Assembly: GCA_019638845.1 (NCBI GenBank)
Contig: JAHBSZ010000006.1
Coordinates: 1 to 64,000, forward strand
DNA length: 64,000 nucleotides
Reading direction: 5' to 3'
Source: Salinibacterium sp.
Lineage (GTDB): Bacteria > Actinomycetota > Actinomycetes > Actinomycetales > Microbacteriaceae
The notes under the pieces are model-generated. The model did not search any database. It had not been told where the DNA came from and saw only the letters and a program-made list of their open reading frames with translations. Positions within the stretch are counted from its first letter, which is position 1. Every line of letters begins with the position of its first letter. A program made the translations under genes and the position numbers. Of this stretch, positions 33,871-54,486 are shown piece after piece.

Positions 33871-35157
33871 ATGCCCGCAATCGTGATCATCGGCGCCCAA
33901 TGGGGCGACGAAGGCAAGGGCAAGGCAACAGACCTCCTGAGCGAAGGCATCGACTACGTCGTCAAGTTCAACGGAGGCAACAACGCCGGGCACACCGTCG
34001 TCGTCGGCGACCAAAAGTATGCCCTGCACCTCCTGCCCTCTGGCATTCTGACGCCCGGGGTAATCCCCGTGATCGGAAACGGTGTCGTCGTTGACATCGA
34101 GGTGCTCTTTGACGAGTTGACCGCACTGACGAGCCGCGGTGTGGACGTTTCCCGGCTTCTCGTGAGCGCGAATGCGCACGTCATCACGCAGTACCATCGC
34201 ACGCTCGACAAGGTCACCGAGAGATTCCTCGGTAAGCGTCAGATCGGCACGACGGGCCGTGGGATCGGGCCGGCGTATGCGGACAAGATCAACCGCGTCG
34301 GCATCCGGATTCAGGATCTGTTCGACGAGAACATTCTTCGCCAGAAAGTCGAGGGTGCTCTTCACCAGAAGAATCACCTGCTCGTGAAGATCTACAACCG
34401 CCGCGCGATCTCGGTCGATGAGGTCGTCGAAGACCTGCTGAGTTATGCAGACCGGTTGCGCCCGATGGTCGCAGACACGGGCCTCATTCTGAATCAGGCA
34501 CTCGACGCCGGAAAGACCATCGTCTTTGAGGGTGGTCAGGCCACGATGTTGGATGTCGACCACGGCACCTACCCGTTCGTGACGTCATCCAACTCGACGA
34601 GCGGCGGCGCCGCGACCGGCTCGGGCGTTGCACCCAACCGCATCGATCGCGTTATCGGGATTGTCAAGGCGTACACCACTCGGGTGGGGGCGGGTCCGTT
34701 CCCGACGGAACTCAACGACGCGTCGGGTGAATGGCTGCGTTCTCGTGGTTTCGAGTTCGGCACGACGACGGGCCGACCCCGTCGCACGGGGTGGTACGAC
34801 GCGCCCATTGCTCGATACTCGGCCCGAATCAACGGCGTCACGGACTTCGTCATCACCAAGCTCGACGTACTCACCGGCCTCACCGCGATCCCGGTGTGCG
34901 TCGCCTACGAGGTAGACGGCGTCCGTGTCGATGAGGTTCCCGTCTCGCAGACCGACTTCCACCACGCGGTGCCCATCTACGAAGAGTTCCCCGGCTGGGA
35001 TGAAGACATCACCGGCGCCAGGAAGTTCGAGGACCTGCCCAAGAACGCGCAGGACTACGTGCTTGCTATTGAGGCGATGAGTGGCGCACGGATGTCGGCG
35101 ATCGGCGTCGGACCAGACCGCGAGGCGATCATCGTGCGGCACGACTTGCTGTCTTAA
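33871..35157 (+). CDS. purA: adenylosuccinate synthetase
   Basis: A 428-residue GTP-dependent enzyme of AMP synthesis. The N-terminal phosphate loop [11 protein letters not shown] (residues about 7-17), the IMP site (TGRGIGPAY) and the late motif [10 protein letters not shown] are intact. The start MPAIVIIG is preceded by GAAGGGA; an ATG-free extension to 33838 is not needed. Its TAA stop lies inside the first half of the TTAACCC repeat that precedes the polysaccharide operon. Confidence 0.98.
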
Positions 35158-35172
35158 CCCTCCGCTTAACCC
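35154..35172 (+). promoter_or_regulatory. TTAACCC direct repeat, site A
   Basis: TTAACCC occurs at 35154-35160 and 35166-35172, 12 bases start to start, in the upstream region of the sugar-transferase operon. CCCCGTTCG follows at about 35195, and TTACCC occurs at 35276-35281. The pattern recurs at 42840, 48775 and 54468. It is a candidate regulator binding site shared by the locus. Confidence 0.6.
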
Positions 35173-36870: not shown

Positions 36871-38985
36871 GTGACCTCTCTCGACACCCGCATCACTGAG
36901 ACGCCCGCCACGCAGTACGCGCGGCGGGTAGTCGTGATGCATGTTGTTGAGAGTTGGGGTGCCGGGGTACGCGCAGCGACGATCCGCTACGCGGCAGCAA
37001 CCCCGGAATGTGAGCATCATGTGTTGCGCGGAGTAGGCCGCAGTGAGTTCGCCTCCGATGGCGAAGAAGTGTTCGCGAGCGTGCGGGACCTGCCCTCGGG
37101 TGCGCTCGCGGCACGGCGTGCGATCCGAGCCGCAACGCGGGAGCTCCGACCGGATGTCGTGCACGCTCAGTCGTCATATGCCGGAGTGTTCGTGCGGATG
37201 TCCCTCCGGAGCACCTCGCGTCAGCGCATCGTGTACAGCCCCCACTGCTTCGCCTTCGAGCGCGATGACCTGTCGCCGCTACTTCGATGGGCAGCGCGCG
37301 CAGTCGAAACCATACTTGCCCGCAACACGGATACGGTCGCGACGTGCTCGCGTGCCGAGCTCGCGACAGCGTCGCGGCTCGGTGCTCGCGCCGTCTATGT
37401 TCCGAACGTGCCGAGCACCGGAAGTCCGGCGGCGGTGACCTCTACCGAGGGGGTCGTCGCCGTCGGACGCATCGGTGCGCAGAAAGACCCGGGCTTCTAC
37501 GGTGACGTCGTCGACCTTCTGCGAGCGCGGCGCCCCGCCGTGGCCGCTGAGTGGGTCGGCGATGGGGACGACACGGATGCCCGCGCCGACCTCGAGCGCC
37601 GCGGCATCCGTGTCACCGGCTGGCTGTCGTCGGCGGGAGCCCAGTCGGCGGTCGCTGGCGCTGCCGTGTACGTGCACACCGCCGCATGGGAGGGCTTCCC
37701 GATCTCCATCCTCGAAGCGGTCGAACTCGGGATTCCGGTGGTCGCTCGCGAGGTTCCCACGCTCGCTGGTGCGCTCGCGACGCCCGGTCTCATGACTCCA
37801 GCCCACGTTGCCGACGCCGTCGAAGCGTTGCTCGCCGGTGGGCCAGAGGCTCGTGAACGAAACCTTCTCGCCTGGCGCGACTTGCTGGCCGGCAACAGCG
37901 CAGAACAGCAGGCCGCCGCGTTGCGCGAGTTGTACTCACCAGCGATTCCGCTCGCAATAAACGGAAAGTGGCTCGGTTCACGTCAGAGTGGAATGCAACG
38001 CTATGCGGGCGAGGTAGCTCGCCGGATTCTTGCCCTCACCCCGGATGCTCGCGTGATCGCTCCCGCGAATGCGGTGCTGCCTGAGTGGCTACCAGCGGAG
38101 CGGGTGACCCGTTCCACGTTGAGCGGGGTACCGTTCGAGCAGCTGGAGTTGCCGTGGCGTGCGCGCGGCAGCATGCTTCTGAATCTCGCGGGCGCCGCAC
38201 CACTGGTGAAGCGCGATCAGCTCGTGGTCATGCACGATGTGACCCCGGTGCGCTTCCCGCAGACCTTCTCGCGCCGGTTCGTCGCGTGGTACTCGGTGAT
38301 GAACCGGGTGCTTTCTCGGCGAGCGCGTCACCTTGCGACCGTCTCGGAGTTCAGCCGCAGTGAGCTGGCCGACGTACTGGGCGTGGAGCGGTTCACCGTT
38401 GCCCCCAACGGTCATGAGCACATGCTCGATACGCGCGCGCCTGGAGGATTCGCGCGATCCGGCGGGCTCGACTACGTGCTGTGTATCGGAAACCTCACTC
38501 CGAACAAGAACCTCGTTCCGGTGGCGACGGCGCTCGCCGCCGCGGGAATCCCTGTCGTGGTGGTCGGTGCCGGGGGCTCGAGCAACGTGTACGCGCGTCA
38601 GGTCGGCCTCGATATTCCCGGCGTCGAACTGGCGGGTCGGGTGAGCGACGACGAGCTGGCAACGCTTCTGCGAGGTGCGAAGGCGCTGGTGTTCCCGTCG
38701 CTCTATGAGGGATTCGGCCTTCCTCTCGTCGAGGCTCAGGCACTGGGGTGCCCGGTGATTGCGTCGGACGCGGCATCCATTCCCGAAGTTGCCGGCGATG
38801 GCGCGCTGTATTTCGACGCGCGTCACCCGGAACAGGCTGTTGCGCTGGTCCAGGCCCTTGATGCCGACACGCGCAGTACCTTGGTCGAGCGCGGGCACAC
38901 CAATGTGACACGGTTCAGTTGGGACTCCACAGCGGCCACGTTGCTGGCGCTCGCCACAGACGATCGAGCGAGGAGCACGCGATGA
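36871..38985 (+). CDS. fused double GT4 glycosyltransferase
   Basis: A 704-residue protein with two complete GT4-type halves. The first spans about residues 18-345 and has the donor-site motif EGFPISILEA. The second begins near residue 352 with NGKWLGSRQSGMQRYA and ends with EGFGLPLVEAQ. Each resembles a stand-alone glycosyltransferase, so one polypeptide probably adds two sugars in succession. The GTG start follows the sugar-transferase gene by one base. The next gene overlaps by 4. Confidence 0.9.
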   Translation: MTSLDTRITETPATQYARRVVVMHVVESWGAGVRAATIRYAAATPECEHHVLRGVGRSEFASDGEEVFASVRDLPSGALAARRAIRAATRELRPDVVHAQSSYAGVFVRMSLRSTSRQRIVYSPHCFAFERDDLSPLLRWAARAVETILARNTDTVATCSRAELATASRLGARAVYVPNVPSTGSPAAVTSTEGVVAVGRIGAQKDPGFYGDVVDLLRARRPAVAAEWVGDGDDTDARADLERRGIRVTGWLSSAGAQSAVAGAAVYVHTAAWEGFPISILEAVELGIPVVAREVPTLAGALATPGLMTPAHVADAVEALLAGGPEARERNLLAWRDLLAGNSAEQQAAALRELYSPAIPLAINGKWLGSRQSGMQRYAGEVARRILALTPDARVIAPANAVLPEWLPAERVTRSTLSGVPFEQLELPWRARGSMLLNLAGAAPLVKRDQLVVMHDVTPVRFPQTFSRRFVAWYSVMNRVLSRRARHLATVSEFSRSELADVLGVERFTVAPNGHEHMLDTRAPGGFARSGGLDYVLCIGNLTPNKNLVPVATALAAAGIPVVVVGAGGSSNVYARQVGLDIPGVELAGRVSDDELATLLRGAKALVFPSLYEGFGLPLVEAQALGCPVIASDAASIPEVAGDGALYFDARHPEQAVALVQALDADTRSTLVERGHTNVTRFSWDSTAATLLALATDDRARSTR

Positions 38986-40139
38986 GAATCGCCCAGTTCG
39001 TCGGCTCGCTGCTCGAACCGCTTGGCGGCGCCGAGCAGTACTGTCTCGAACTCGCGCGCTGGCAGCGCGATCAGGGACATGAGGTCACGATCATCACCGG
39101 GTGGGTATCCCCCGGAATCGAGAAGTCCCTTGCGGCCGAGGGCCTGACGGTGCGCCTCGTGCGCAGCCGACGGCCATACCCGCCCGACCGCAAGGGATCC
39201 AAGCCATCCGCCGTGGTGTTCCACGCTCTCGACTTGGTGGGGGGCCTCCGCGTCTCCGCACCACTGCGTCGTGTGCTCGCCGAACCGTGGGATGTCGTGC
39301 ACGTTCACCGGTTCGCGGGGTTTGGTGCGGCGATGTTGCGGTCAGGTCGACCCACCGTCATGACGGTTCACGACTATGGGCTTGTTGACACCTCCACGAC
39401 GCTTCTGCGGCACGGTCGCGAGGTGGAGAAAGCGCCGCTCGTGCAGCGCATCCGCACGAGCATCACCAACCGCTCGGTGCGGTCGGCGCGCCTCATCTTC
39501 CCCACTGAACGACTTCGTCAGAAGCATGCTCAATGGGGGCTTGAATTGCCGACGAAGACGGACGTGATACCGCACGGCTGGCGTGGTTCCGCACCGTCAT
39601 TCACCGAGCACGACGGACCCGTCATCTTCCTGTTTCTCGGCAAGCTGATTGCCCCGAAGGGCATCGAGTTGTTGCTCTCAGCGTGGGCCGAAGGAATCCG
39701 TGGCGCAGAACTGTGGGTAGCAGGCGCCGGCGAGCTCGAGTCGGTGGTGCAGGCTCACGAGAGTGTGCGGTATCTCGGATGGCTTGACGACACCGGGCGC
39801 CGCGCGGCCCTGGCCGCGGCATCCGTGCTCGTGCTCCCGTCGACGTGGCCCGAGAACTTTCCGCTTTCTGCCGCCGAGGGGGTGCTGGCCGGGTTGCCGT
39901 TGATTTCCACGACGATCGCCGCGCCGCCGGTTCTGCATGAGGGTGTGAACGGACTTCTCGCTCAACCGGATGCCGCGGCCCTGCGCTCGGCTCTGCTCGA
40001 GTTGCTCGATCCGGTGACTCGGGGGCAGTTCGCCGCTGGCTCCCGCGAGATCGCCCTCGCCCTCGACTTCGATACCCATGGACGCCGCATCGAGGCACTG
40101 TACGAGGAGCTTCTCGAGATGGATCGGGCAGCGTCGTGA
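38982..40139 (+). CDS. glycosyltransferase, GT4 family
   Basis: A 385-residue GT-B glycosyltransferase. The N-terminal acceptor domain begins MRIAQFVGSLLEPLGGAEQ, with the Gly-rich loop of GT4 enzymes. The C-terminal half has FLGKLIAPKG and the late motif NFPLSAAEGVLAG in place of the usual E-x7-E. The ATG at 38982 overlaps the previous stop. The sugar donor is not known. It acts on the cytosolic face of the membrane in repeat-unit assembly. Confidence 0.92.
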   Translation: MRIAQFVGSLLEPLGGAEQYCLELARWQRDQGHEVTIITGWVSPGIEKSLAAEGLTVRLVRSRRPYPPDRKGSKPSAVVFHALDLVGGLRVSAPLRRVLAEPWDVVHVHRFAGFGAAMLRSGRPTVMTVHDYGLVDTSTTLLRHGREVEKAPLVQRIRTSITNRSVRSARLIFPTERLRQKHAQWGLELPTKTDVIPHGWRGSAPSFTEHDGPVIFLFLGKLIAPKGIELLLSAWAEGIRGAELWVAGAGELESVVQAHESVRYLGWLDDTGRRAALAAASVLVLPSTWPENFPLSAAEGVLAGLPLISTTIAAPPVLHEGVNGLLAQPDAAALRSALLELLDPVTRGQFAAGSREIALALDFDTHGRRIEALYEELLEMDRAAS

Positions 40140-40585
40140 GTGTGCAGGATCGCTTGTTGCACGCGTCTCGTTCGCGGTTGTTGGGCAGAGTTGCCTATCT
40201 CATGCTCAAGTCTCTCGGGGTTGAGTTCCCACGCAGTGTGGAGTGGTCGGTACCGCTCGAGCTCGCACACGGTGCAGTTGGGCTTGTCGTACACTCCCGC
40301 ACGCGGATCGGTTCTGGTGTGACCCTTATGCCCGGGGTGGTCATCGGACGGTCGGACTCGTACATCCCCGAACAGGCTGGGACCGCAACCGGTCGTGTCG
40401 TCATTGGCGATAACGTCACGGTGGGCGCCGGAGCGAAGGTGCTCTTCAAGCCGGGTCAGGAACTCGTCATCGCGCCGGGAACCATTGTCGGCGCCAACGC
40501 GGTACTGCTCGAGTCGACGGGCGCCGATGAGGTCTGGGCGGGCAACCCGGCACGCAGGGTCGGCACAAGGGCAGTGGGAGAGTGA
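40136..40585 (+). CDS. left-handed beta-helix acyltransferase
   Basis: A 149-residue hexapeptide-repeat protein of the serine acetyltransferase/colanic-acid acetyltransferase type. Repeats of the form [LIV]-G-x4 (IGSGVTLMPGVVIG, VIGDNVTVGAGAKV, IAPGTIVGANAVL) cover about residues 55-130, and the ending VWAGNPARRVG is the family tail. It probably O-acetylates the polysaccharide precursor. The GTG overlaps the previous stop, and the next gene overlaps it. Confidence 0.88.
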   Translation: MSVQDRLLHASRSRLLGRVAYLMLKSLGVEFPRSVEWSVPLELAHGAVGLVVHSRTRIGSGVTLMPGVVIGRSDSYIPEQAGTATGRVVIGDNVTVGAGAKVLFKPGQELVIAPGTIVGANAVLLESTGADEVWAGNPARRVGTRAVGE

Positions 40586-41913
40586 CAGTACTCGGCGTCG
40601 TGACTCTCGTCGCGATAGTTGTGGTCTGGTTCGTTCGACGCGAGTGGACCCAATATGTGGTTGGCGCGACCGTGGCCTTTCCGCAGACGGCGGGCTTGAT
40701 AGTCGCCGGCAACGGTTTCCCGTTGTTCTATCTCGCGGTCGTGATCCTCGTGGTGCTTGCCGCCCCGTATGCGTTGCTCGGCCTGTCACGGATGGGACGC
40801 GCGCCCCATACTCGCCGCGAGCGCCTGCTTCCGGATTTGATCGGGCTCGCGCTCGTGGCGTGGTCCGCGGTCATCACGGTGGCGGGCCCTCGCATCTTCG
40901 AAGGGATGCGGGTATTCGCCCCCGAGCTCGGGGTCGATGCGCAGGTGTACAACATGGCGACGTTGCATCCGTCGCTCGGCAACATTGCGCAGCTCGGGTA
41001 TGTGAGCCTTGGCGTCATCTTTCTGCTCGTCGCTGGTCGCACCTTCCCGGTGGATGCACGACTCATCGGTTCCGCGCTGTGGGTCGCGGTTGTGCTCGCC
41101 GCCGTACGAATTGTGGCCGAGCCGGTCTGGCCTCACGCTCTGCTCCAAAACATGCCGTCGTTCCACTATGCAACCCCTGAGCGGCTCTCCGGCACCTTCT
41201 ATGAACCGTCTGTGCTCGGGCTGTATCTGACGGCTGCGGCCGGGTATTTCGGCGCGCGCTTGCTGTGGTCGGGCCGCGCGGGTCGAGTCGCTGCCTTCAT
41301 CGCGCTCGTGCTCGTCGCAGTTGATTTCGTGAGAAACGGATCGGGCACGGCCCTGCTCGGGCTCGCGATCCTGCTCGCGCTCGCCGGTGTTGTTGGCCTC
41401 GTGCGTCAGCTACGATCGCGCCGTTTCGGGGTACGGCCGCTCGCGATCGTAGGTGCTGTCGCACTCATCGGCGGAGGGCTAACCCAAATCCCGGTCATCC
41501 TGCAGCTGACCGTGGGATCCGCTGCCACCAAAGCTGATTCCGATAGTTTCATCGCGCGCACCGCATCCAACGTGAGGTCGTGGAACATCTTCCTCGAGAG
41601 TGTGGGCCTCGGAATCGGCCTCGGGGGCAATCGTCCGTCCAGTCTCGTCTTGCTCATCCTGAGTTGTTTGGGCATCGTCGGATTCGCGCTCGTGACAGTG
41701 CTTGTCGTTCTTGCCCTGAAGCGGGCACTCGCCCATCGCCCGATCGAACCCGCTGGCTGGGGACTAGCGGGGGTGCTCGTCGCCGCGATAGTCGCGATCC
41801 CAGACCTCTCTACGCCCGCGATCTGGATCGGCCTCGCGGCGTGCCTCTACACCGTGGTGCCGCTGCCTGACCCTGCATCACTGAGGGTGCCCACCGCTGC
41901 CCTGCATCGCTGA
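40582..41913 (+). CDS. O-antigen polymerase/ligase-like membrane protein
   Basis: A 443-residue protein with about 11-12 hydrophobic segments and one larger external loop (about residues 180-215, VWPHALLQNMPSFHYATPERLSG region). The topology and place in the operon fit Wzy-type repeat-unit polymerases or WaaL-type ligases; sequence motifs in these families are too weak to tell which. The GTG start overlaps the acyltransferase. It ends the first forward operon and meets a convergent GT2 gene. Confidence 0.75.
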   Translation: MTVLGVVTLVAIVVVWFVRREWTQYVVGATVAFPQTAGLIVAGNGFPLFYLAVVILVVLAAPYALLGLSRMGRAPHTRRERLLPDLIGLALVAWSAVITVAGPRIFEGMRVFAPELGVDAQVYNMATLHPSLGNIAQLGYVSLGVIFLLVAGRTFPVDARLIGSALWVAVVLAAVRIVAEPVWPHALLQNMPSFHYATPERLSGTFYEPSVLGLYLTAAAGYFGARLLWSGRAGRVAAFIALVLVAVDFVRNGSGTALLGLAILLALAGVVGLVRQLRSRRFGVRPLAIVGAVALIGGGLTQIPVILQLTVGSAATKADSDSFIARTASNVRSWNIFLESVGLGIGLGGNRPSSLVLLILSCLGIVGFALVTVLVVLALKRALAHRPIEPAGWGLAGVLVAAIVAIPDLSTPAIWIGLAACLYTVVPLPDPASLRVPTAALHR

Positions 41914-41919
41914 CCGACG

Positions 41920-42822
41920 TCAGCGCGAGCGCCAGCCCAATTCTTGCCGAGCGCGCCGGCCGAGGTACCAGTGTTCGAGCGGTGACAGGCCCGACAATGA
42001 GCCGAGGAAGCGTTGGACGAATGGCTCGACGGCGGCGCGACCTTCGGCCGAGAGCGGGCCGGCGCGAGTGAATGCCAGGTCGCGAAACCACGGTGTCTCC
42101 CGCGTTCCCCACACGACGTTCGTGAGTTCCTGATACGACCGTTCAAGCACCGGATCGTAGGCGAGACTCTCGCGCCAGCCGACAGCCGCGGTCACTTGGG
42201 TGGCGCTCTTGCGGATGAGAACGGTTGGCCTGCCGAGGCGAACCATGTTCGCGCCGTTCGCGGCGGCACGCAGCCAGAGGTCGTAGTCCTCGGCGATCGC
42301 GCCCTCGCGGTAACCTCCCGCAGCGAGCAAGACCTCGGCTCGCCCGAGCGAGGTCGAGTGCGGATAGGGACAGTCGATGAGCAGCGCGAGCTGGGCTGCG
42401 GCAGCGCCAAACCTGATCGGCGGGATGAGCTTGGGGCGATTCGCACCGATCACCTGAAACATCGAGAACACGATGTCTGCGCCACGATCGATCGCGCCGA
42501 TCTCGGAGCGGAAACGGCCAGGTAAGCACACGTCGTCGGAGTCCATGCGCGCGATGAGCTCCCCGCTCGCGGCCTCGAGCAGTCGCTCAGCGGCGAGTGC
42601 GACCCCGAGGTTCTCGGTGACACTGTCGATCTTCACCCGTGAGTCACCGGTGGACGACGCGATCTCGAGAGTTCGGTCGGAACTCGCGTCATCGAGAACA
42701 ATCAGTTCCGCATCACGGGGCAGATCTCGCAGAGTGCTCCTGAGCGCTTCTCCGATGGTGCGCTCCGCATTGCGGGCGGGCATCAAGACGCTGAGGCGGG
42801 GCACCGCACCACTCTGGCACAC
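41920..42822 (-). CDS. glycosyltransferase, GT2 family
   Basis: A 300-residue GT-A enzyme. It has the opening SVLMPARNAERTI, the donor-binding LIVLDDASSDRT, the DxD-type metal site ARMDSDDVCLPGR and the acceptor-side EDYDLWLRAA. It is the only minus-strand gene inside the polysaccharide locus. The GTG at 42822 sits against GGAGG. The GTG at 42804 (MPRLSVLM) is an equally good start, and spacing does not settle it. Confidence 0.92.
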   Translation of the reverse strand: MCQSGAVPRLSVLMPARNAERTIGEALRSTLRDLPRDAELIVLDDASSDRTLEIASSTGDSRVKIDSVTENLGVALAAERLLEAASGELIARMDSDDVCLPGRFRSEIGAIDRGADIVFSMFQVIGANRPKLIPPIRFGAAAAQLALLIDCPYPHSTSLGRAEVLLAAGGYREGAIAEDYDLWLRAAANGANMVRLGRPTVLIRKSATQVTAAVGWRESLAYDPVLERSYQELTNVVWGTRETPWFRDLAFTRAGPLSAEGRAAVEPFVQRFLGSLSGLSPLEHWYLGRRARQELGWRSR

Positions 42823-42839: not shown

Positions 42840-42858
42840 TTAACCCCGGGCTTAACCC
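42840..42858 (+). promoter_or_regulatory. TTAACCC direct repeat, site B
   Basis: TTAACCCCGGGCTTAACCC is identical over 19 bases to site C at 48775. CCCCCTTTCGGGTG follows 11 bases later, and TTACCC is doubled at 42931 and 42943, again 12 bases apart. It lies 176 bases before the AcpS start, in the divergent gap. Bases 42859-43034 hold no gene. Confidence 0.65.
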
Positions 42859-43034: not shown

Positions 43035-43472
43035 ATGCACAGCACCCGAGCTGGCACGACGATGGAGCACCCCGGTGTTCTCATCGGCTGCGACATCCAT
43101 CCCGTTTTCAACGTCGTCGAGAGCCTCGACATCTTTGGCGACCGCTACCTCGCGCGAGTGTTCACGCCCGCCGAGCAGGCGGCGTGTGAGGGCGTTGCCT
43201 TCGCCGAGCGTTTGGCCGCACGATACGCAGCGAAGGAGTCGATACTCAAACTCCTGAAGGTCCCGGCCGAGGTTGCTGTGCCGTGGACCGACATCGAGAT
43301 CGGCGCCGAGACCAGCGGAGCTCCAACCGTGAGTCTTACCGGTCGCGCCGCCGAGATCGCGGCCACCTTAGGGGTGTCGGTGATCGAACTCACTCTCAGC
43401 CATGACGCTGGCCTGGCCATGGCGGTCGCCGCTGCGGTCGTCGGGGTCAAGGTGGAAGCGCTCGCCGCGTGA
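43035..43472 (+). CDS. holo-ACP synthase (AcpS-type phosphopantetheinyl transferase)
   Basis: A 145-residue AcpS-like enzyme that would move phosphopantetheine from CoA to the carrier protein encoded next. Motif 1 is IGCDIHPV (Asp20, metal), and motif 3 is ARYAAKESILKLL (Glu68). The C-terminal LSHDAGLAMAVA is also conserved. AAGGAA precedes the ATG at 43035. The GTG of the carrier protein overlaps its stop. Its presence in the cluster suggests a dedicated rather than a housekeeping enzyme. Confidence 0.88.
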   Translation: MHSTRAGTTMEHPGVLIGCDIHPVFNVVESLDIFGDRYLARVFTPAEQAACEGVAFAERLAARYAAKESILKLLKVPAEVAVPWTDIEIGAETSGAPTVSLTGRAAEIAATLGVSVIELTLSHDAGLAMAVAAAVVGVKVEALAA

Positions 43473-43720
43473 CGGCCGTCGACACCGTGCGTCACGTCAT
43501 AGACAAGCACGGAAAACTCAAGGCGGACGTGGCCAATCTGGCCGAGGACGCCGACCTGTATGCAGCCGGCATGACCTCCAACGCGAGTGTCAACGTCATG
43601 CTCGCCGTCGAGGATGCCTTCGACATCGAGTTTCCGGACGAACTACTTTCCAAATGCACGTTCACCTCAATCGGCAGCATCTGCTCCGCCGTCAAAGGTC
43701 TTCTGGAGGCCGCAGCATGA
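43469..43720 (+). CDS. acyl/aminoacyl carrier protein
   Basis: An 83-residue carrier protein with the four-helix acidic fold. The attachment serine is probably Ser37 in YAAGMTSNASVN, in place of the usual DSL triplet, followed by VMLAVEDAFDIEFPD. The gene lies between AcpS and the flavoprotein with 4-base overlaps on both sides. The amino acid:carrier protein ligase two genes on is its probable loading enzyme, so its cargo is likely an amino acid rather than a fatty acid. Confidence 0.88.
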   Translation: MTAVDTVRHVIDKHGKLKADVANLAEDADLYAAGMTSNASVNVMLAVEDAFDIEFPDELLSKCTFTSIGSICSAVKGLLEAAA

Positions 43721-44892
43721 GAATGCCCACCACTATCGTTTCGACCCCGGATGCTCGGCCGCTGGCCGAACGCGTCGCGTACGTTGCCGACATCGCCGGC
43801 CGCTACGCAGGCGAGGTCGATGCTGCCGCCCGCTTCCCCGCGGAGGCGGTCGATGCCATGCGCTCGACCGGGTTGCTCGGCGCTAGCCTGCCGACCTCGC
43901 TGGGCGGTGAAGGACTCACCCTCTCCGAACTCGGCTCCATCGCCGCGAAGATCGGTGCCGCGTGTTCGTCTGCGGGAATGGTCTTCGCCATGCACCACAG
44001 CCAGGTTTTGAGCATGTCCCGCCACTTGGGCGGCTCGGCATCCCTTGCGGTGCTCGCGGGTCGCATCGCCACGGAACAGCTTCTGATTGCGTCGGCAACG
44101 ACGGAACTCGGGATCGGCGGCGATGTTCGTTCGAGCTCGTGCTTCGTCGATATCGAGGGCGACAAGGTCCGGCTCGTCAAGAACGCGCCGGTCATCTCCT
44201 ATGGCTCTGAGGCCGATCTGGTGTTCGTGACGGCTCGCCGCAATGCGGACAGCGCGCCCAGCGATCAGGTGGTCGTGGTGTGTGACGCGGCCAACCTCCA
44301 GCTTGAGCCCACCGGAGGCTGGGATACCCTCGGCCTGCGTGGGACAGCGAGCATGGGGTACCGCCTCAATGCCCTCGTCGCCGCTGATCGGGTGATTCCG
44401 GAGCCCTACGAATCAATCTCCACCGAGTCGATGCTTCCCGTGTGCCATGTGTTGTGGGCATCAGTGTGGCTCGGCATGGCGCGCGCGCTTGTCGATATCT
44501 GCCGCCAGTACGTGCGCGCTGCAGCCCGACGAAGCATCGGCAGCGTGCCGCCGGGTGCGACGAAGCTCGTGGATCTCATCGCCGAGCTTGAGCGGTTCGA
44601 GGCCCTCGTTGACGGACTCGCACGTCGCACCGACGAGATCTTCGACGATCGTGAGGCCCTCGGCACGATCGGCTACCAGGTGAGCATCAACAATCTCAAA
44701 GTCACCGCCTCGGAGCTCGTTGCCCAAGTCGCGATCGCTGCCCTTGCCATCACCGGCATCTCCGGCTATCGAAATGACGGTCAGTACAGCGTTGCCCGCA
44801 TCTTCCGCGACGCACAGGGCGCCGCTCTCATGGTCCACAACGATCGCATCATCGCCAACACGGCCAGGCTCATCTTGGTCCAGAAGGGGTAG
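43717..44892 (+). CDS. acyl-CoA dehydrogenase-like flavoprotein
   Basis: A 391-residue protein of the acyl-CoA dehydrogenase fold: N-terminal helices, a beta domain (about residues 110-210) and the C-terminal four-helix bundle. The usual catalytic-base region near the C-terminus (YEGT-like) is replaced by MVHNDRIIANTA, so ordinary alpha,beta-dehydrogenation of acyl-CoA is doubtful. In other pathways family members oxidise amino acids bound to carrier proteins, as in pyrrole formation from prolyl carriers. The ATG at 43717 overlaps the carrier-protein stop. Confidence 0.85.
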   Translation: MRMPTTIVSTPDARPLAERVAYVADIAGRYAGEVDAAARFPAEAVDAMRSTGLLGASLPTSLGGEGLTLSELGSIAAKIGAACSSAGMVFAMHHSQVLSMSRHLGGSASLAVLAGRIATEQLLIASATTELGIGGDVRSSSCFVDIEGDKVRLVKNAPVISYGSEADLVFVTARRNADSAPSDQVVVVCDAANLQLEPTGGWDTLGLRGTASMGYRLNALVAADRVIPEPYESISTESMLPVCHVLWASVWLGMARALVDICRQYVRAAARRSIGSVPPGATKLVDLIAELERFEALVDGLARRTDEIFDDREALGTIGYQVSINNLKVTASELVAQVAIAALAITGISGYRNDGQYSVARIFRDAQGAALMVHNDRIIANTARLILVQKG

Positions 44893-44896
44893 AGGA

Positions 44897-45838
44897 ATGA
44901 CTGACGTTCTGAACGACCGAACCACCGCACTCGACGACGCTCGCTTCGCATTCCGGGAGGAACTACTCAGCTCCGGTCAGCTCATCGGCACCTCGGTGCC
45001 GGGGATCTATGGACGATCAGGCTCCTTCGAGCAGGTCATTGCTGGGCTGGATCGCGTGCTGGGAGAGACCTTCTCGTCTCTCGGCGCGACGGTATTGCGC
45101 TTTCCGCCCGTGTACCCGCGAGCTGATTTCGAGCGCACCGACTACATTGCGTCGTTCCCCGACCTCAGTGGTGTCGTCTCGAGTTTCGAGCGCGGTGACC
45201 GCGAGCATCGTGAACTGTTGGCGGCCCGCGAGGAAGGCGAACCGTGGGACGGATGGCTCGACCCGACCGATGTCGTACTGACGCCAGCGATCTGTCACCC
45301 CCTCTACGCGACTCTCGAAGGCCGGCTACCCGAGGGCGGTGCGGTCTACGACCTCTCCGGCTTTGGATTCCGTCATGAGCCCTCGATCGACCCGTTGCGC
45401 ATGCAGTCATTCCGGATGCGCGAATTCGTGTTCGTGGGGACTCCCGATGCCGCGCAGCTCTACCGGGACACTTGGCTCGACACCTCCGTGGCGCTGCTCG
45501 CTTCTCTGGGTCTCGCCGTGGACGCCGTTCCGGCCAACGACCCGTTCTTCGGCCGCGCGGGAAAGATGCTCGTGAGCGCCCAGCTCAGGGAGAACCTCAA
45601 GGTGGAGATCACCGTTCCCCTCTATGCAGACCTGCACGAGGGAACGGCGATCGCGTCGGCAAACTGCCAGCGCGATCACCTCACGGCCGCGTTCGACATT
45701 CAGACTGCCGATGGTGAGACCGCCCACGGAGCCTGTGTCGCTTTCGGCATGGAACGCACAGTTCTCGCGCTCCTTCGTACTCACGGGATGGACACCGAAT
45801 CCTGGCCCGTGGCTGTCCGCGCAATCCTGGGGCTGTGA
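44897..45838 (+). CDS. amino acid:carrier protein ligase (class II aaRS homolog)
   Basis: A 313-residue homolog of the atypical seryl-tRNA synthetase catalytic core that lacks a tRNA-binding domain. Motif 2 is FGFRHEPS...FRMREF; motif 3 is AFGMERTVLAL. Cys133, Glu176 and Cys280 stand where this family binds zinc. Characterised relatives activate glycine or alanine with ATP and load it on a carrier protein, not on tRNA. AGAGGA lies at the ATG, 4 bases after the flavoprotein stop. Amino-acid choice cannot be read. Confidence 0.88.
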   Translation: MTDVLNDRTTALDDARFAFREELLSSGQLIGTSVPGIYGRSGSFEQVIAGLDRVLGETFSSLGATVLRFPPVYPRADFERTDYIASFPDLSGVVSSFERGDREHRELLAAREEGEPWDGWLDPTDVVLTPAICHPLYATLEGRLPEGGAVYDLSGFGFRHEPSIDPLRMQSFRMREFVFVGTPDAAQLYRDTWLDTSVALLASLGLAVDAVPANDPFFGRAGKMLVSAQLRENLKVEITVPLYADLHEGTAIASANCQRDHLTAAFDIQTADGETAHGACVAFGMERTVLALLRTHGMDTESWPVAVRAILGL

Positions 45839-45845
45839 TCACAGG

Positions 45846-47519
45846 ATGATGTTGGACACCTGGTTCGGCGATCCCGAGTCGCCGAACCTCGGCTTTCTCC
45901 ACCTCCCTGACGACCGCGAGGTCGTCGGGGGAGTGGTGATCTGCCCACCGCTCGGATACGACCAAGTGTTGGGCTACCGCGCTCTGCGGTTCGTCGGTCA
46001 GGAACTCGCGGCCCAGGGAATCGCAGCCCTGCGATTCGACTACGTCGGCGAGGGTGATTCTGCCGGCCAGAGCGGTACCGCTCAGGCGCCGGAACTGTGG
46101 ATGTCGAGCGTCGCGCGCGCGGCCGCCTACCTGCGGGACTCCGGAATCGACAATGTCGCACTGCTCAGCCTCGGCGCTGGCGCACTGATCGCCAACGAGG
46201 CCGCGCTCACAGTCGACGCCACCGCGCTGGTCCACTGGGACCCGGAGCTCTCCGGTCGTCGTTTCCTTCGCCGCCAGCGGGCGCTCTTCGAGCTGACCGT
46301 CGGCCACGATGGTCCGACCGACCCGTCAGCCCTGCTGTCGCTCACGCTGCACCCGGATGCCGCGGCGTGGCTGAGAACGCGCGAGATCACCGCCGCGACC
46401 CTTCCGGTGGGCATGGACGCACTGATCGTGGGTCGTCGAGCGTACGACGAGAACCCTGCGACCCTCAGGCTCACGAGCAACCTTCCGCCGCGAGCCGAAT
46501 ATCGGTCGGTTGTGGGACAGGAGGAGCTGCTCGATGTGCCGGGCACGCTCGCTGTTCTTCCGGAGGAGACAATCGCGGGGATGAGTGAGTGGCTACTCGA
46601 GCGCTTCCCTCGGGCATCCGTGCCGGCGCGACCGCTGGTGAATGGCCGTGCGGTCGTGGGACATACGTCCGATGGAACTCCGATCGTCGAGAAACTCCTG
46701 CGAATCGGGCCCGACCGGTTGTTCGTGATCACGACGTCGCGCGAGGACGACAACGAGTCCGGTGTCGTCGTGCAGCAGCCCGGCGCTGCGGAACACCGTG
46801 TTGGCCCCGGCCGTTTCCAAGTGCTGGCCGCCCGCGAGCTCGCCGAGCGCGGGTACCGCGCAGTCAGATTCGATAGGCGAGTCACGGGTGACACCACCGA
46901 GGTTCGCCCGGGTGAGCCCAACTTCATCTTCGCCAACGAGTGGGTAGACGACACAGACCGGCTGATTGCGGAACTGGGCATCGGTGAGGATGTTGCGCAC
47001 GCCGGACTGTGCGCTGGTGGCTGGGTCGCCGCACGCATGGCCGAGCGTCGACCCGCGCGCCTGACGGTGATGTTCAGCCCGAACTACTTCAAGACCGCCC
47101 CGCTGCGAGCTGGCGAATACTCGGTCCTCACCCAGTCGTCACGCGAGGGGACTCGGAAGTTCATCGGCCTCAAGCGCCGAATCCGTGGCATTTTGCCGGG
47201 GTGGGCGTGGCCAATTCTTGGCCGATTGCAGCTGTTCCACGACCCAGCGATATTGCTTGGGGCTTCGACCCGAGACCGGAACAGTACGGTTGCCGTGCTC
47301 CTGACGCCCGAGGACGAGGAAAACTTCCGTGCGCATCGCGGCCCAGATGCGGTTGCCCGTCTCATCAACAGGGGAGCCGACATTCGGGTCACCAGTTACG
47401 CGTACGGCGACCACTCGCTGTTCGGCGCGGAGGTACGCACGACGATGCTCACCGACCTCCTTTCCCTCGTCGATGAGAAGTTGACCCGTTCGGTCACCCC
47501 AACAAGATCACGACTGTGA
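45846..47519 (+). CDS. two-domain alpha/beta hydrolase, exosortase-type hydrolase-like
   Basis: A 557-residue protein with two alpha/beta-hydrolase halves. The first (about residues 1-290) has CPPLGYDQ and DYVGEGDSAG, as in hydrolases linked to exosortase systems, but its elbow reads LSLGAGAL with no nucleophile. The second (about 330-557) has the elbow GLCAGG with Cys389 and the probable catalytic His523 in YGDHSLFG. A Cys-type enzyme could transfer or release the thioester-bound aminoacyl group. The start is one of two adjacent ATGs. The flippase overlaps by 4 bases. Confidence 0.8.
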   Translation: MMLDTWFGDPESPNLGFLHLPDDREVVGGVVICPPLGYDQVLGYRALRFVGQELAAQGIAALRFDYVGEGDSAGQSGTAQAPELWMSSVARAAAYLRDSGIDNVALLSLGAGALIANEAALTVDATALVHWDPELSGRRFLRRQRALFELTVGHDGPTDPSALLSLTLHPDAAAWLRTREITAATLPVGMDALIVGRRAYDENPATLRLTSNLPPRAEYRSVVGQEELLDVPGTLAVLPEETIAGMSEWLLERFPRASVPARPLVNGRAVVGHTSDGTPIVEKLLRIGPDRLFVITTSREDDNESGVVVQQPGAAEHRVGPGRFQVLAARELAERGYRAVRFDRRVTGDTTEVRPGEPNFIFANEWVDDTDRLIAELGIGEDVAHAGLCAGGWVAARMAERRPARLTVMFSPNYFKTAPLRAGEYSVLTQSSREGTRKFIGLKRRIRGILPGWAWPILGRLQLFHDPAILLGASTRDRNSTVAVLLTPEDEENFRAHRGPDAVARLINRGADIRVTSYAYGDHSLFGAEVRTTMLTDLLSLVDEKLTRSVTPTRSRL

Positions 47520-48778
47520 AAGCGCGCGGCACCACCCGTCGGCTCGGGCTGTTCGGCGCCTCCGTGTTGCTCAACGGGGTCGTCAGCCTCGTCACGATTC
47601 CCGTCGTCGTGGCAATGGCCGGCGCGGACCCGTGGGCGTCCATGGCAACGGGACAATCCATCGGCAACTCGATCGGTGTGCTTGTGACCTTCGGTTGGGG
47701 GCTCACGGGACCCGCGACCATTGCGATGGCGTCCATTGAAAAAAGGCCGGGACTCTTCCTCGACTCGCTCTTTTCCCGTGGAGCACTGCTCTTACCCCTG
47801 TTGCTCCTCCAGGCACTGGTAACGGCGGCCATCGTGCCCAACGACAAGATCGTCGCTTTTGTCGCGGGCTTGGCAATGACGCTCGCGGGGGTATCCGCGA
47901 ACTGGTACTTCGCGGGGGAAAGCCGACCTGGACGCTTTCTTCTGTTTGACACGATCCCCCGTGTTCTCGGAACGGTGGCCGGCCTACTCTTGGTCGTTCT
48001 CACGGACGAACTGCTGTTCTTCGCGCTAGCGCAGCTTGCCGGTTCGCTTCTGGCTCTCGGGGTCTCGTCATATGTGATCTTCCGGGGGCGATCTCTCGAC
48101 TTCCGCGAGGCAGCGCGCTGGCGGAACATCGTGGCGCGTTTGGTCGAGCAACGCCACGGCGTTGTCGCGACGGGTCTTCAGGCGGCTGCCACCCCGGCGA
48201 TCCTCGGAATTGTCGCAATAACCGCGCTGCCCTCCCTCCCCCTCTTTGTGCTCGCCGACCGACTCTCGAAGTTCGTCGGCATGGCGACGTCCCCGCTCAT
48301 CCAGGTCTTTCAAGGATGGGTACCCGCCGCCCGCGGGGTGGAGTTACGGCGACGCATCGCCGTGTCCGCGCGCATCACGGTCATCCTCACCGTCGTTGCG
48401 GGCGCGACCTACGCCGCGCTTCTTCCTCTGTTCAGCCAAGTGCTCACCCACGGGCAGGTTGCGGTGGACGCGTCGTCAGCTATCGCCTTCGGAATTGTCG
48501 CGTCGTCGTGGGTGCTCTCGCCCTACCTCACCAACGTCGCGCTTATGGCCGTCGGACGGGTGCGTGTCGTTGCCTTCGGCGCCGCGCTGGGTGTTCCGCT
48601 CACTCTGATTCTGCTCACCAGCTCCGAGCTTCTCGGGGCCACGGAATTCGCCCCATGGTCGATCGTGATCGGGAACACCGTCGGAATGACGTGGCTCGTT
48701 GTCGCGCTGCGTAAGGCGTTGCAGGGCCCCCTCGAGCCCGCGCTCAACTTTGTCCCCGATTTGGAGCCTGTGCCTTAA
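47516..48778 (+). CDS. polysaccharide flippase-like membrane protein (Wzx/MOP type)
   Basis: A 420-residue protein with about 12 hydrophobic segments, laid out like the MOP-superfamily flippases that move lipid-linked repeat units across the membrane. Positive loops contain R/K near residues 125 and 245. Sequence similarity to a named Wzx is too weak to state. The GTG overlaps the hydrolase stop. It ends the second forward operon. Its TAA stop falls inside repeat site C. Confidence 0.82.
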   Translation: MKARGTTRRLGLFGASVLLNGVVSLVTIPVVVAMAGADPWASMATGQSIGNSIGVLVTFGWGLTGPATIAMASIEKRPGLFLDSLFSRGALLLPLLLLQALVTAAIVPNDKIVAFVAGLAMTLAGVSANWYFAGESRPGRFLLFDTIPRVLGTVAGLLLVVLTDELLFFALAQLAGSLLALGVSSYVIFRGRSLDFREAARWRNIVARLVEQRHGVVATGLQAAATPAILGIVAITALPSLPLFVLADRLSKFVGMATSPLIQVFQGWVPAARGVELRRRIAVSARITVILTVVAGATYAALLPLFSQVLTHGQVAVDASSAIAFGIVASSWVLSPYLTNVALMAVGRVRVVAFGAALGVPLTLILLTSSELLGATEFAPWSIVIGNTVGMTWLVVALRKALQGPLEPALNFVPDLEPVP

Positions 48779-48793
48779 CCCCGGGCTTAACCC
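48775..48793 (+). promoter_or_regulatory. TTAACCC direct repeat, site C
   Basis: TTAACCCCGGGCTTAACCC is the same 19-mer as site B. CCCCCGTTTGGTGG begins 10 bases after it, and TTACCC lies at 48886-48891. The site begins one base before the flippase stop codon and lies 134 bases upstream of the kinase-like gene. No other feature is seen in 48794-48927. Confidence 0.65.
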
Positions 48794-48927: not shown

Positions 48928-51825
48928 ATGGACATCCACGAATACCTTGGCGTGCTACGGCGCGGCTGGGCACTCATCGTGCTCGGCTTGCTCGTGGGCA
49001 TCGCCGGTGGACTCGCAGCAAACGCCGTGCAGCCGCGCGCCTATGCCGCGACGTCTCGCGAGATTCTCACCAACAGTGAGGCACTAGGCGACCTCACCCA
49101 GTCTTTGCAGGCGTCCAACCTCGCCGAGGGACGCATCGGTTCGTATGTGCTTGTGGCGACAAGCGGGCTCGTCCTGCAGCCCGTGATCGATGAGCTCAAG
49201 CTCGACATGACTGTTCAGGAACTCGCCGATCACGTGAATGTGGTCGCGCCGCCCGGCACCCTCATTGTCGAGATCACGGCGACCGCCGCAACTCCGGCAC
49301 TGGCCAAGTCGATCGCGAACACGGTTTCGGCGGTGTTCAGCGATGTGATCGAGAACCAGATCGAAAATGCGGCGGCCCCAGCGGTGGGTGCAACCGACGC
49401 GACAACGGATGCCACGGCAACTCCGGTCACCCCCGCAAGCACTCCCGTGCGCATCGTCAACATCGAGCACGCGTCCCTGCCGACCGCGCCGACGTTGTCC
49501 AACGCCCCGCTGTTGCTCGGTGTCGGCACGATTCTTGGCCTTGCCCTTGGTCTCATCGGGGCTTCGCTGCGTGAATCTCTCGATCGTCGCATCCGTGGTC
49601 GCAAGGATGTCGCTGCGGTCAGCGACCGCCCAGTACTCGCCCAGATCCGGCCCGATCGTGGAGTCAAAGCGAGCCCGATCGTTATGCACACCAGCTCGCA
49701 GAGCGCGATTGCCGAATCGTTCCGCGGCCTGCGCGCCAGCGTCGAGCACGTGCGCTCTCGCGACGACGTGAGCACGTTCGTGGTCACGGCCATGGCGCCA
49801 CGACAGGGTGCGTCACTGGTGGCGGCGAACCTCGCTCTCGCCATCGCTGACACTGCGACAACCGTCGTAGTCATCGATGCCAACCTGCAGGCGCCCCAGC
49901 AAGCTGAGATATTTGATGTTGATGCTGGTCCGGGTTTGACCGACCTGCTCACCACCACGATCAGCCTCGATGAGGTCATCGCGGCTGGCCCCGGTGACAA
50001 TATCTGGGTGGTGCCGATCGGCTCGCGCCGCGCACGGTCAGCCGACCTCCTCGCGACGCCGCGCATGCGTGCCCTGCTTGCTGAACTGCAGTCGCGGTTC
50101 GATGTCGTCATCATTGACACCCCAGCGATCAGCACGGCGACGGATGCCACGGTGCTTGGCTCCTTCGGTGCGGCCACCTTGCTCGTCGCCGCCGAGGGTA
50201 CCGCGACGCGACCGGCGCTCGCCGATGCGCTCGGGGTGCTCGCCGCCGGTGGAAGTGTTCCCGCAGGAATCGTGCTCAACCAGATTCCACGGAACACCCC
50301 CCGTGGTCGCCGCCCGGAGGCACCGGTAGTGCAGCGCACGCCCCGCCGCGGTGCAGGCACGAAAGCGCCGGCACCAGCCGCCAAGACTGTACTCGAAGCG
50401 CCGGCCGCCGCCGTTGCACCCGTGCCGATCCCAGGGGTCGAGCCAGCACCGGAACCGGTCGTCCGTTCAGAGCCTTCCGGAGTCGACGCGGTACCGATCG
50501 GGCGCGCGATCCCTCTCGCGCCGAGCCCGGCCCCCGTGGACGCCCCCGAAGTGCTGCCCGACCCCGTGGTATCCGCTCCCGCGGCTCCGGTTGTGCCACA
50601 GCTGCCGCCGCCGGTTGTCGAGTCGACCTCTGGTCGTGCCGCTGCACGAGCCGCCCGTGTTGCCATGAAAGCCGCAGCTCGAGCCGCCGCATCTCGGCCC
50701 CAAGCACCCGTCTCCCGCTTCGCACCCAAGCCCACAGGCGCCGTCGAGGCCGCAGAACTCGCAGCCGCAGCCGACCGCAAGTCGTGGCGCGCACCGATCA
50801 TCGACGCCGTGCCGGTACTTGAGCCGGTGGACGAAAGCTCCAACTCGGTGATTGACGTTCCCCGCGGTGACACGGGCGAGCGCGTCAGTCTACTCACCCC
50901 CCAGCCCGGCGACCGAACCCCAGAGGAACTCGCCGAGATCGTCGAAAACCAGTTCAAGGATGATGTCGTGTACGAGATTCCCGTTGAGGCATTCGGAAGT
51001 TTCCACAGTGTCGACGCCGAGGCATTTGCCGCGATCGACAATGAGCCAACTGTCACTCCGCCCCCGGTGCGACCCGAGGCTGCTGCCCCTCCCCTCACCG
51101 AGGAGAACGCCGCGTTCGTCATCGATCTACTCGCCGACGAGCCCGTGTATTCGCAGCCCCGATTCGACGATTGGGCAGCGGCAACCCCAACTCCGGCGGT
51201 TGCGGAGGCGGCAGAGCCCGATGTGTCGGTGGACGAACCGTCCGACATCGTGCCGGAAGCGTCCGTGGTGGAGAAGCCTGTCTACGAGGTTCCGGTAATC
51301 GAGCCCGAAGCTGTCGAGCCTCCACAGACTGCCGAGGTCGCCGAACCGACATCTTTCGTTGCGCCTGCTGCGTGGCCGGCGCCGCGCTTGGTGGCTGATT
51401 GGACGTTCGTACAACCTGGCCCCGCGGCCTGGCCTCCGGCACCGGAGGTGCCGGCAGCCGAGGTACCGGCGGCGGAGTCCTCCAAACCTGCTGCACCGCC
51501 GGTAGCCGAGGAGCCGGTGGTCGAGGAGCCAGCAACCGAGGAGTCAGCAACCGAGGAGCCGATCGCAGACGAGACGCAGGAGGCACCCACTCTTGCGCGG
51601 GTGACCATGCTTCCGACGCGTGAACGCCTGGCACGGGAGAGCTACCTGCTCAAGTCGCGCGAACTCGAGCGCGCAGCGCAGGAGCGACTGAAGTATGAGC
51701 AGGATCGACTCGAAGCACGTATCCGGGAGCAGCTCGAGGCTGACCGCCGACAACTCGCCGGAAAGCTCGACGAGTTGCTCGAAGACACGGTCATGATGCC
51801 GCGCTCCGTGAGTGACGGCTCGTAG
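48928..51825 (+). CDS. Wzz/BY-kinase-like protein, degenerate kinase with long tail
   Basis: A 965-residue chain-length/tyrosine-autokinase homolog. The Wzz part has transmembrane helices at about residues 15-32 and 190-212. The kinase-like domain (about 260-450) has lost key residues: Walker A reads APRQGAS (residues 290-296), with no Lys; Walker A' is DANLQ (317-321); Walker B IIDTPA (395-400) remains. The C-terminal Tyr cluster is missing. Residues about 455-890 are Pro/Ala/Glu-rich and disordered, ending in a coiled coil (about 895-950). It is likely a structural regulator of polymer length, not an active kinase. Confidence 0.88.
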   Translation: MDIHEYLGVLRRGWALIVLGLLVGIAGGLAANAVQPRAYAATSREILTNSEALGDLTQSLQASNLAEGRIGSYVLVATSGLVLQPVIDELKLDMTVQELADHVNVVAPPGTLIVEITATAATPALAKSIANTVSAVFSDVIENQIENAAAPAVGATDATTDATATPVTPASTPVRIVNIEHASLPTAPTLSNAPLLLGVGTILGLALGLIGASLRESLDRRIRGRKDVAAVSDRPVLAQIRPDRGVKASPIVMHTSSQSAIAESFRGLRASVEHVRSRDDVSTFVVTAMAPRQGASLVAANLALAIADTATTVVVIDANLQAPQQAEIFDVDAGPGLTDLLTTTISLDEVIAAGPGDNIWVVPIGSRRARSADLLATPRMRALLAELQSRFDVVIIDTPAISTATDATVLGSFGAATLLVAAEGTATRPALADALGVLAAGGSVPAGIVLNQIPRNTPRGRRPEAPVVQRTPRRGAGTKAPAPAAKTVLEAPAAAVAPVPIPGVEPAPEPVVRSEPSGVDAVPIGRAIPLAPSPAPVDAPEVLPDPVVSAPAAPVVPQLPPPVVESTSGRAAARAARVAMKAAARAAASRPQAPVSRFAPKPTGAVEAAELAAAADRKSWRAPIIDAVPVLEPVDESSNSVIDVPRGDTGERVSLLTPQPGDRTPEELAEIVENQFKDDVVYEIPVEAFGSFHSVDAEAFAAIDNEPTVTPPPVRPEAAAPPLTEENAAFVIDLLADEPVYSQPRFDDWAAATPTPAVAEAAEPDVSVDEPSDIVPEASVVEKPVYEVPVIEPEAVEPPQTAEVAEPTSFVAPAAWPAPRLVADWTFVQPGPAAWPPAPEVPAAEVPAAESSKPAAPPVAEEPVVEEPATEESATEEPIADETQEAPTLARVTMLPTRERLARESYLLKSRELERAAQERLKYEQDRLEARIREQLEADRRQLAGKLDELLEDTVMMPRSVSDGS

Positions 51826-54467: not shown

Positions 54468-54486
54468 TTAACCCGCCTTTTCACCC
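54468..54486 (+). promoter_or_regulatory. TTAACCC direct repeat, site D (degenerate)
   Basis: TTAACCC at 54468-54474 and TTCACCC at 54480-54486 keep the 12-base period, and CCCCCTGTTGTGGTGG follows 10 bases later, as at site C. It lies 99 bases upstream of the LuxR-type gene, reading away from it. The rest of 54370-54548 shows no gene. Confidence 0.5.

Follow-up and report, generated by a model that had tools for sequence, protein, structure and literature searches.

Why should a bacterial polysaccharide locus contain a set of genes that would charge a carrier protein with an amino acid, and where would that amino acid go? The question is posed by a window of 64,000 nucleotides (the whole stretch of DNA analysed here) from Salinibacterium sp., which lies on contig C10 of a 2.96 Mb genome (G000) and in which five genes, for an AcpS-type phosphopantetheinyl transferase, a carrier protein (CP), a flavoprotein, an amino acid:[carrier protein] ligase and a fused double hydrolase (HYD12), are set among genes for polysaccharide assembly. 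To our knowledge, the end product of these ligases has been unknown since their discovery. Sequence comparisons indicate that the module probably decorates the surface polysaccharide of the locus and that, with a chance slightly better than even, HYD12 acylates the lipid-linked repeat unit with the CP-bound aminoacyl-derived group on the cytoplasmic side.

An earlier note, made from the window, had described five tightly coupled genes, and their coordinates and families are confirmed: all five open reading frames are present and run in the same direction, those of AcpS and the CP overlap by 4 bp, the later gaps are of 2, 4 and 7 bp, and the 3′ end of HYD12 overlaps the next, flippase-like gene by 4 bp. 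The five genes are as follows.

43035..43472, + strand: AcpS-type phosphopantetheinyl transferase (PF01648, 46.9 bits, cut-off 25)
43469..43720, + strand: carrier protein (PF00550; NF005480, 102.9 bits, cut-off 72)
43723..44892, + strand: acyl-CoA-dehydrogenase-fold flavoprotein (PF00441, PF02771 and PF08028 above cut-off)
44897..45838, + strand: amino acid:[carrier protein] ligase, a class II aminoacyl-tRNA synthetase homologue without tRNA-binding domain (NF005479)
45846..47519, + strand: HYD12, a fused double alpha/beta-hydrolase with an N-terminal pseudo-hydrolase and a Cys389-Asp490-His523 domain (halves related to TIGR03101 and TIGR03100)

PF01648 matches three proteins of the genome, the module AcpS among them. 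The predicted phosphopantetheine site of the CP, Ser37, is kept in 99 of 99 aligned homologues (rows shorter than 60 aa omitted), and its nearest solved structures are 4h2w_C and 2jq4 (Agrobacterium Atu2571). The ligase, of 313 aa, scores 386.1 bits against NF005479 (amino acid--[ACP] ligase; cut-off 357) and finds its nearest solved structures in Bradyrhizobium Bll0957, 4h2w (E 8e-67) and 3mey (E 3e-65). Its Cys133, Glu176 and Cys280, which presumably bind zinc, are invariant in all 113 ligases of the set analysed, which spans 113 loci and a part of the window (114 stretches). Position 282, which we take to bear on specificity, is Ala in the window protein and in 28/113 ligases overall, and Gly in 85/113; predicting the amino acid from this position led nowhere. 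Background on the ligase family is given in PMC9437257, and among the literature matches listed (titles and abstract starts) none ties the family to a polysaccharide.

The first line of evidence for a glycan role is a repeat shared by the module and the polysaccharide operons. The word TTAACCC is seen seven times in the window, all on one strand, as three direct repeats and one half-site, and the repeats precede exactly three operons: that of the polyprenyl-phosphate sugar-1-phosphate transferase (PGT), the module, and that of the Wzc-type chain-length regulator.

35154..35172, + strand: direct repeat TTAACCC-N5-TTAACCC, 219 bp before PGT
42840..42858, + strand: direct repeat TTAACCC-N5-TTAACCC, 195 bp upstream of AcpS; the presumed operator of the module
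48775..48793, + strand: direct repeat TTAACCC-N5-TTAACCC, 153 bp before Wzc
54468..54474, + strand: single half-site TTAACCC, upstream of the LuxR gene

These three exact copies are the only ones in the genome, all within the polysaccharide locus, on which ground a genome-wide role of the repeat was rejected. Within the genus, three copies on one strand are present in all six locus-bearing genomes (G000, G004, G008, G014, G019 and G023, with one additional copy elsewhere on the opposite strand in G019), and 1/21 genomes without the locus has the repeat, as a single copy (G016). The reversed pattern, used as a control, was found 0 times in the 27 genus genomes, and 398 kb of control stretches contain the TTAACCC word once and the full repeat 0 times. 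When 14 stretches were examined against their called genes, every complete repeat lay before PGT, AcpS or Wzc, as in G004, where one is placed 220 bp before its PGT. In a second genus, both AcpS and Wzc of locus L023 are preceded by the repeat (the stretch begins too near PGT for a third site to show), and L080 shows a repeat before PGT. The letters of the N5 spacer differ between copies, a variation that points to selection on the repeat and away from recent copying. The repeat is presumably an operator, possibly bound by the LuxR-type protein encoded at the end of the locus, and the module appears to be co-regulated with the surface polysaccharide genes.

A second line of evidence comes from the distribution of the genes. 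Searches for the ligase family gave 12 positives among 149 genomes (the window's own genome and those of relatives), 21 among 398 genomes of the family and 10 among 396 of the phylum, and a further 80 loci were fetched as the best 80 of 318 confirmed ligase matches; gene calling relied on a home-made codon-score script, the resulting genes were clustered by BLAST, and the ligase tree was built without two distant ligase homologues (L027 and L074). The order AcpS-CP-flavoprotein-ligase-HYD12, here called type B, is kept in the 5/5 other locus-bearing genus genomes and in the second genus (L023), and is therefore not due to chance; searching other Microbacteriaceae for it, as the earlier note had advised, shows that most loci of the family carry it. 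The type B ligase and the window's Wzy-like polymerase occur in the identical 6/27 genus genomes. At the family level, ligase (E <= 1e-3) and HYD12 (E <= 1e-20) occur in the identical 21/398 Microbacteriaceae genomes, from 10/85 genera, and this co-occurrence is not only a matter of linkage, since in one genome (G283) the two lie ~0.9 Mb apart.

HYD12 itself provides a third line of evidence. It is fused to a flippase domain in Williamsia (L088) and in two Rhizobium loci (L134 and L135), all Pfam-confirmed, and the HYD12 proteins of L089, L146 and L147 are similar in length to the fusions, the Pfam scan having covered L088, L134 and L135 only. In a FastTree phylogeny, the two fusion groups stand far apart, with support 1.0 each, and are nested among unfused relatives (0.999 and 0.979); therefore, the flippase-HYD12 fusion probably arose twice. 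The ligase is tied in this way to polysaccharide assembly by the repeat and by presence and absence, and its partner HYD12 by gene fusion.

The neighbourhoods of the module give a divided picture. Genes recognised by a set of glycan hidden Markov models (GT4, PGT, flippase, Wzy, GT2 and GumK-like) are present in 15/30 actinobacterial module loci and in 0/20 control stretches from module-bearing genomes, a comparison biased both by the training of the models on module loci and by the picking of the control places by hand. The 30 loci are L015-L025 and L055-L073, with L026 (a flank without ligase) and the distant homologues L027 and L074 omitted; in two of the positive loci, L066 and L067, the evidence is just one non-adjacent GT4 each. 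Among the 80 further loci, glycan genes accompany the module in 6/6 from Microbacteriaceae (duplicates, L075-L080 being the same places as L020, L022, L018, L016, L017 and L059), 14/17 from other Actinobacteria and 20/57 from other bacteria. Nearly all non-actinobacterial loci, together with Rhodococcus, have a different layout, CP-flavoprotein-ligase-DUF1839-GH2-like (type A), and in Mycobacteriales loci the module parts are mixed among PGT, GT4 and flippase genes. DUF1839 is found in 56 of the 57 non-actinobacterial loci, usually followed by a GH2-type gene, and HYD12 also lies within the stretch in 27; glycan genes were recognised in 16 of these 27 and in 4 of the 30 without HYD12, a contrast that is indicative only, the loci being related. 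The presence of glycan genes thus follows HYD12 more closely than it follows the ligase.

Several results weigh against a role of the module in the polysaccharide. The other 15/30 actinobacterial loci, including 7/8 from genus g32, show no gene recognised as glycan-related within the stretch fetched, so that the loci divide evenly on what the earlier note had taken as decisive, namely whether the module lies mostly away from polysaccharide genes. In the second genus, L059/L080 show just a half-site before AcpS. The match between ligase and HYD12 breaks in the phylum sample, where 5 of the 396 genomes have both: 12/17 genomes with HYD12-type matches, several of them single-domain, are without ligase, and 5/10 with ligase-type matches, all five below the ligase cut-off, are without HYD12. 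The window's flippase-like protein has no family match in Pfam, NCBIfam, profile-profile or PDB searches, and HYD12 folds like ordinary esterases and lipases. Furthermore, we know of no amino-acid-bearing polysaccharide from the genus, a point for which no literature search was made. The proposal of the earlier note that the aminoacyl group decorates a glycan is partly supported: the shared upstream repeat, the shared presence and absence and the flippase fusions strengthen the glycan link, decoration itself is a prediction, and the isolated modules of other genera may serve the same end or another.

Loci of the latter kind lend some weight to the best-surviving alternative, an unlikely one, in which the target of the module is some other envelope component (a wall polymer, a lipid or a small glycoconjugate) and its link with the exopolysaccharide in this genus goes no further than co-expression. 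In several Microbacteriaceae genera (e.g. L021, L024, L057, L058, L060, L062, L064 and L065), the five-gene set occurs with no glycan gene recognised around it, as this alternative would have it. It accounts poorly for the repeat and for the identical presence and absence with Wzy in the genus, and for the fusions to flippases elsewhere.

Decoration of the polysaccharide of the locus calls for a transferase, and HYD12 is the candidate. Among 69 homologues, six being duplicate places, the GxCxG motif of domain 2 has Cys389 in 68 (Ser in one), with His523 in 69/69 and Asp490 in 65/69 (Glu in the other 4), and domain 1 has Gly, Arg, Ala or Thr where its nucleophile would stand, and never Ser or Cys. 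In the structural model (pLDDT 93.8, pTM 0.93) both nucleophile positions lie between strand and helix, where a nucleophile elbow belongs. Cys nucleophiles in the alpha/beta-hydrolase fold occur in acyl-transferring enzymes such as PHA synthase. What had been called a two-domain hydrolase does consist of two alpha/beta-hydrolase halves and is better read, we infer, as a Cys-dependent acyltransferase joined to a pseudo-enzyme. An assignment as TIGR03100/TIGR03101 equivalog was rejected (53.5 vs 168.45 and 72.7 vs 202.75 bits). Where the hydrolases are split, a GxCxG hydrolase is present in 7/8 loci (L192, L195, L196, L197, L199, L202 and L203) and was not seen in L194.

The resemblance to esterases and lipases makes hydrolysis by HYD12 possible, and with it a second alternative, somewhat less probable still than the envelope one: that the pathway ends in a free small metabolite, HYD12 acting as a thioesterase that cleaves the (modified) amino acid off the CP. 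The Foldseek matches listed (50 of 1754) are all generic esterases, lipases and peptidases, and similar sets of activating enzyme, CP and acyl-CoA-dehydrogenase-like enzyme make part of clorobiocin, according to PMC11218499. The Cys in place of Ser in all homologues save one would be unusual for a plain esterase, the flippase fusions in two clades fit poorly with a released product, and no small-molecule transporter lies within the five genes. Finally, that HYD12 is an editing enzyme clearing mis-charged CP while another gene performs the transfer, for instance the hexapeptide acyltransferase of the same locus (40136-40585), is highly improbable, given that gene calling found no such acyltransferase in L017, a locus that retains the module, and that HYD12 accompanies the ligase in 21/21 ligase-bearing family genomes.

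Under the preferred reading, acylation of the polysaccharide precursor by HYD12, AcpS would arm the CP, and the ligase would activate a small amino acid, for which the family precedents are glycine and alanine, and load it onto the CP, where the flavoprotein may alter the aminoacyl group in a subset of systems. Cys389 of HYD12 would then take the acyl group and pass it to the glycan, at a hydroxyl or an amino group, beside the flippase; this acylation would take place on the lipid-linked repeat unit, on the cytoplasmic side, and would precede flipping and polymerisation. Loading, amino acid, flavoprotein chemistry, transfer and acceptor are all predicted steps in this scheme. With a candidate transferase and residue named, the question of the end product of the ligases becomes testable.

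The contribution of the flavoprotein is uncertain. The column of the canonical C-terminal Glu (Val371 in the window) has Ile or Val in 98/99 aligned proteins and a gap in one (rows shorter than 300 aa omitted), and the isovaleryl-type Glu position is Cys241, followed by a His242 kept in 99/99. With no Glu at either of what we take to be the canonical base positions of acyl-CoA dehydrogenases, the standard dehydrogenase reading was rejected; the base that we assume for prolyl-CP dehydrogenases is missing as well. Rv1679-type and SfnB-type models score above those of prolyl-CP dehydrogenases, all far below cut-off, and the PDB matches include DnmZ, an enzyme of the acyl-CoA-dehydrogenase fold. 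The gene was not called in the fetched stretches of several Mycobacteriales loci or in that of a second module of the same genome, of type A (contig C8, L015 9297-13916), which consists of CP, ligase, DUF1839 and GH2-like genes. The suggestion that the aminoacyl group is oxidised by the flavoprotein was right as to the family and is uncertain as to oxidation, because of the missing bases and the sister modules in which the gene was not found; we treat the protein as an optional tailoring enzyme of unspecified chemistry.

The sister modules offer a parallel to HYD12. The DUF1839 protein of the second module (model pLDDT 96.1) has 16/16 Foldseek matches with E up to 1e-3 to AziU3/U2, CtaG or CcbD (TM ~0.54-0.60 by query length). 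CtaG transfers CP-bound groups and AziU3/U2 acts on them. As described in PMC12945683, CcbD loads CP-bound proline onto its own cysteine and passes it to an amino sugar. DUF1839 had earlier been assigned to the papain-like superfamily, and a connection with glycans hinted at (PMC10318531). Thus each of the two layouts has a Cys enzyme suited to take an acyl group from a CP.

Some HYD12-type proteins may be served by other loaders. Stretches were fetched from 11 of the 12 phylum genomes with HYD12 and without ligase, and the proteins of four were scanned. L188 and L189 carry HYD12 together with AcpS and a CP, and encode an amino-acid adenylation protein in the vicinity; in L192 and L196, the neighbours of the hydrolase or hydrolase pair are an amino-acid ligase of the AMP-forming type, a small gene resembling those of carrier proteins, and a PigA/RedW-like dehydrogenase that falls short of the cut-off of 500 bits (365 and 431). 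According to BLAST, a similar AMP-ligase adjoins the hydrolases in L195, L197 and L202, none was detected beside them in L194 and L199, and L203 has just a short piece at the stretch edge; in L193 and L198 the hydrolase was not recovered by gene calls. This fits the idea of exchangeable loaders feeding a common hydrolase pair. A broader proposal, more tentative than the transfer by HYD12 and somewhat short of an even chance, is that of a general glycan-acylation device, in which a synthetase-derived ligase charges a CP and a pseudo-hydrolase/Cys-hydrolase pair, sometimes fused to a flippase, transfers the group to a lipid-linked glycan; the exosortase-type pair would be the common transferase, and the loaders (synthetase-like here, AMP-forming elsewhere) would be interchangeable. 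If so, the exosortase-associated hydrolase pair would gain a role, and a relative of tRNA synthetases a route by which it shapes the bacterial surface.

Several known systems resemble parts of this arrangement. The Bradyrhizobium Bll0957 and Agrobacterium Atu2571 proteins belong to the same ligase and CP families, above the NCBIfam cut-offs, and the alphaproteobacterial ligase loci have the same CP-flavoprotein-ligase order; unlike the non-actinobacterial loci, the window module has its operon completed by AcpS and HYD12, lacks DUF1839 and shares its repeat with polysaccharide operons. The TIGR03100/TIGR03101 hydrolases and the TIGR03098 ligase presumably belong, to judge from their family names, to an exosortase-A polysaccharide context, in which a hydrolase 2 and hydrolase 1 pair lies near a CP and an amino-acid-type activating enzyme, as also in L192 and L196. 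In the window, by contrast, the hydrolases are fused and far below the curated cut-offs, the activating enzyme is synthetase-like rather than AMP-ligase-like, and no match to exosortase (PF09721) was found in the genome (98.5% complete). In the D-alanylation of teichoic acid by Dlt, an amino acid on a dedicated CP is likewise the donor for an envelope polymer, through the AMP-ligase DltA and transfer by DltB/DltD, none of which is among the five genes. The pyrrole of clorobiocin (CloN4, CloN5, CloN3 and CloN7) is an amino acid that is activated, held on a CP, oxidised and acyltransferred to a sugar hydroxyl, a likeness to the proposed pathway on whose enzyme folds the available passages of PMC11218499 are silent, and the product is a small-molecule antibiotic. 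CcbD/LmbD, the lincosamide condensing enzymes, move a CP-bound amino acid to an amino sugar by means of a Cys enzyme (PMC12945683), whose papain-like fold resembles the sister-module DUF1839 and not HYD12. Bacterial glycans that bear amino acids are known, an example being the glycine on a Plesiomonas core oligosaccharide (PMC7555982), with no link to the module genes implied.

The genes surrounding the module in the window are the following.

35373..36869, + strand: polyprenyl-phosphate sugar-1-phosphate transferase (PGT; PF02397, 229.7 bits)
36871..38985, + strand: GT4 glycosyltransferase of 704 aa (PF13692/PF00534)
38982..40139, + strand: second GT4 glycosyltransferase (above Pfam cut-off)
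40136..40585, + strand: hexapeptide-repeat acyltransferase (PF00132, 40.4 bits)
40582..41913, + strand: Wzy-like polymerase (PF04932 weak, 19.9 bits, below the cut-off of 31.7)
41920..42804, - strand: GT2 glycosyltransferase (PF00535)
47516..48778, + strand: flippase-like membrane protein (hydropathy and position only)
48928..51825, + strand: Wzz/Wzc-type chain-length regulator with tyrosine autokinase (NCBIfam matches below cut-off)
51838..54369, - strand: LuxR-type regulator of 843 aa (PF00196)

The module had been placed between polymerase and glycosyltransferase genes on one side and a flippase on the other. This holds firmly for the glycosyltransferases, the PGT, both GT4, the hexapeptide acyltransferase and the GT2 each exceeding their Pfam cut-offs, and less so for the weak Wzy and for the flippase. 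No Pfam family matches the Wzc-type kinase, which scores 102.1 bits with TIGR01007 (cut-off 108.05) and 116.2 with TIGR03018 (cut-off 230.65). The large LuxR-type regulator is kept at the locus end across relatives (the genus genomes with the locus and the second genus), and it is our guess as candidate regulator of the polysaccharide locus.

Some further observations concern the related loci. In G283, the HYD12 gene unlinked from the ligase (L200 8864-10597) is flanked by the genes of a phosphoketolase and a GT2-type protein, and in the deep-branching actinobacterial loci L192 and L196 the PigA/RedW-like gene may point to a pyrrole-type acyl donor. Rhizobiales type A modules (L133 5549-8367 and others) often adjoin genes for EF-P, an EpmA-like protein (class II tRNA-synthetase-like) and an EpmB-like protein (a lysine-aminomutase-like radical SAM protein), the clusters being present in 22-23 loci. 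Moreover, in several Alphaproteobacteria the HYD12 and flippase genes have a recurrent neighbour, a gene of the GH5 cellulase family (L144 6152-7189; cluster c21).

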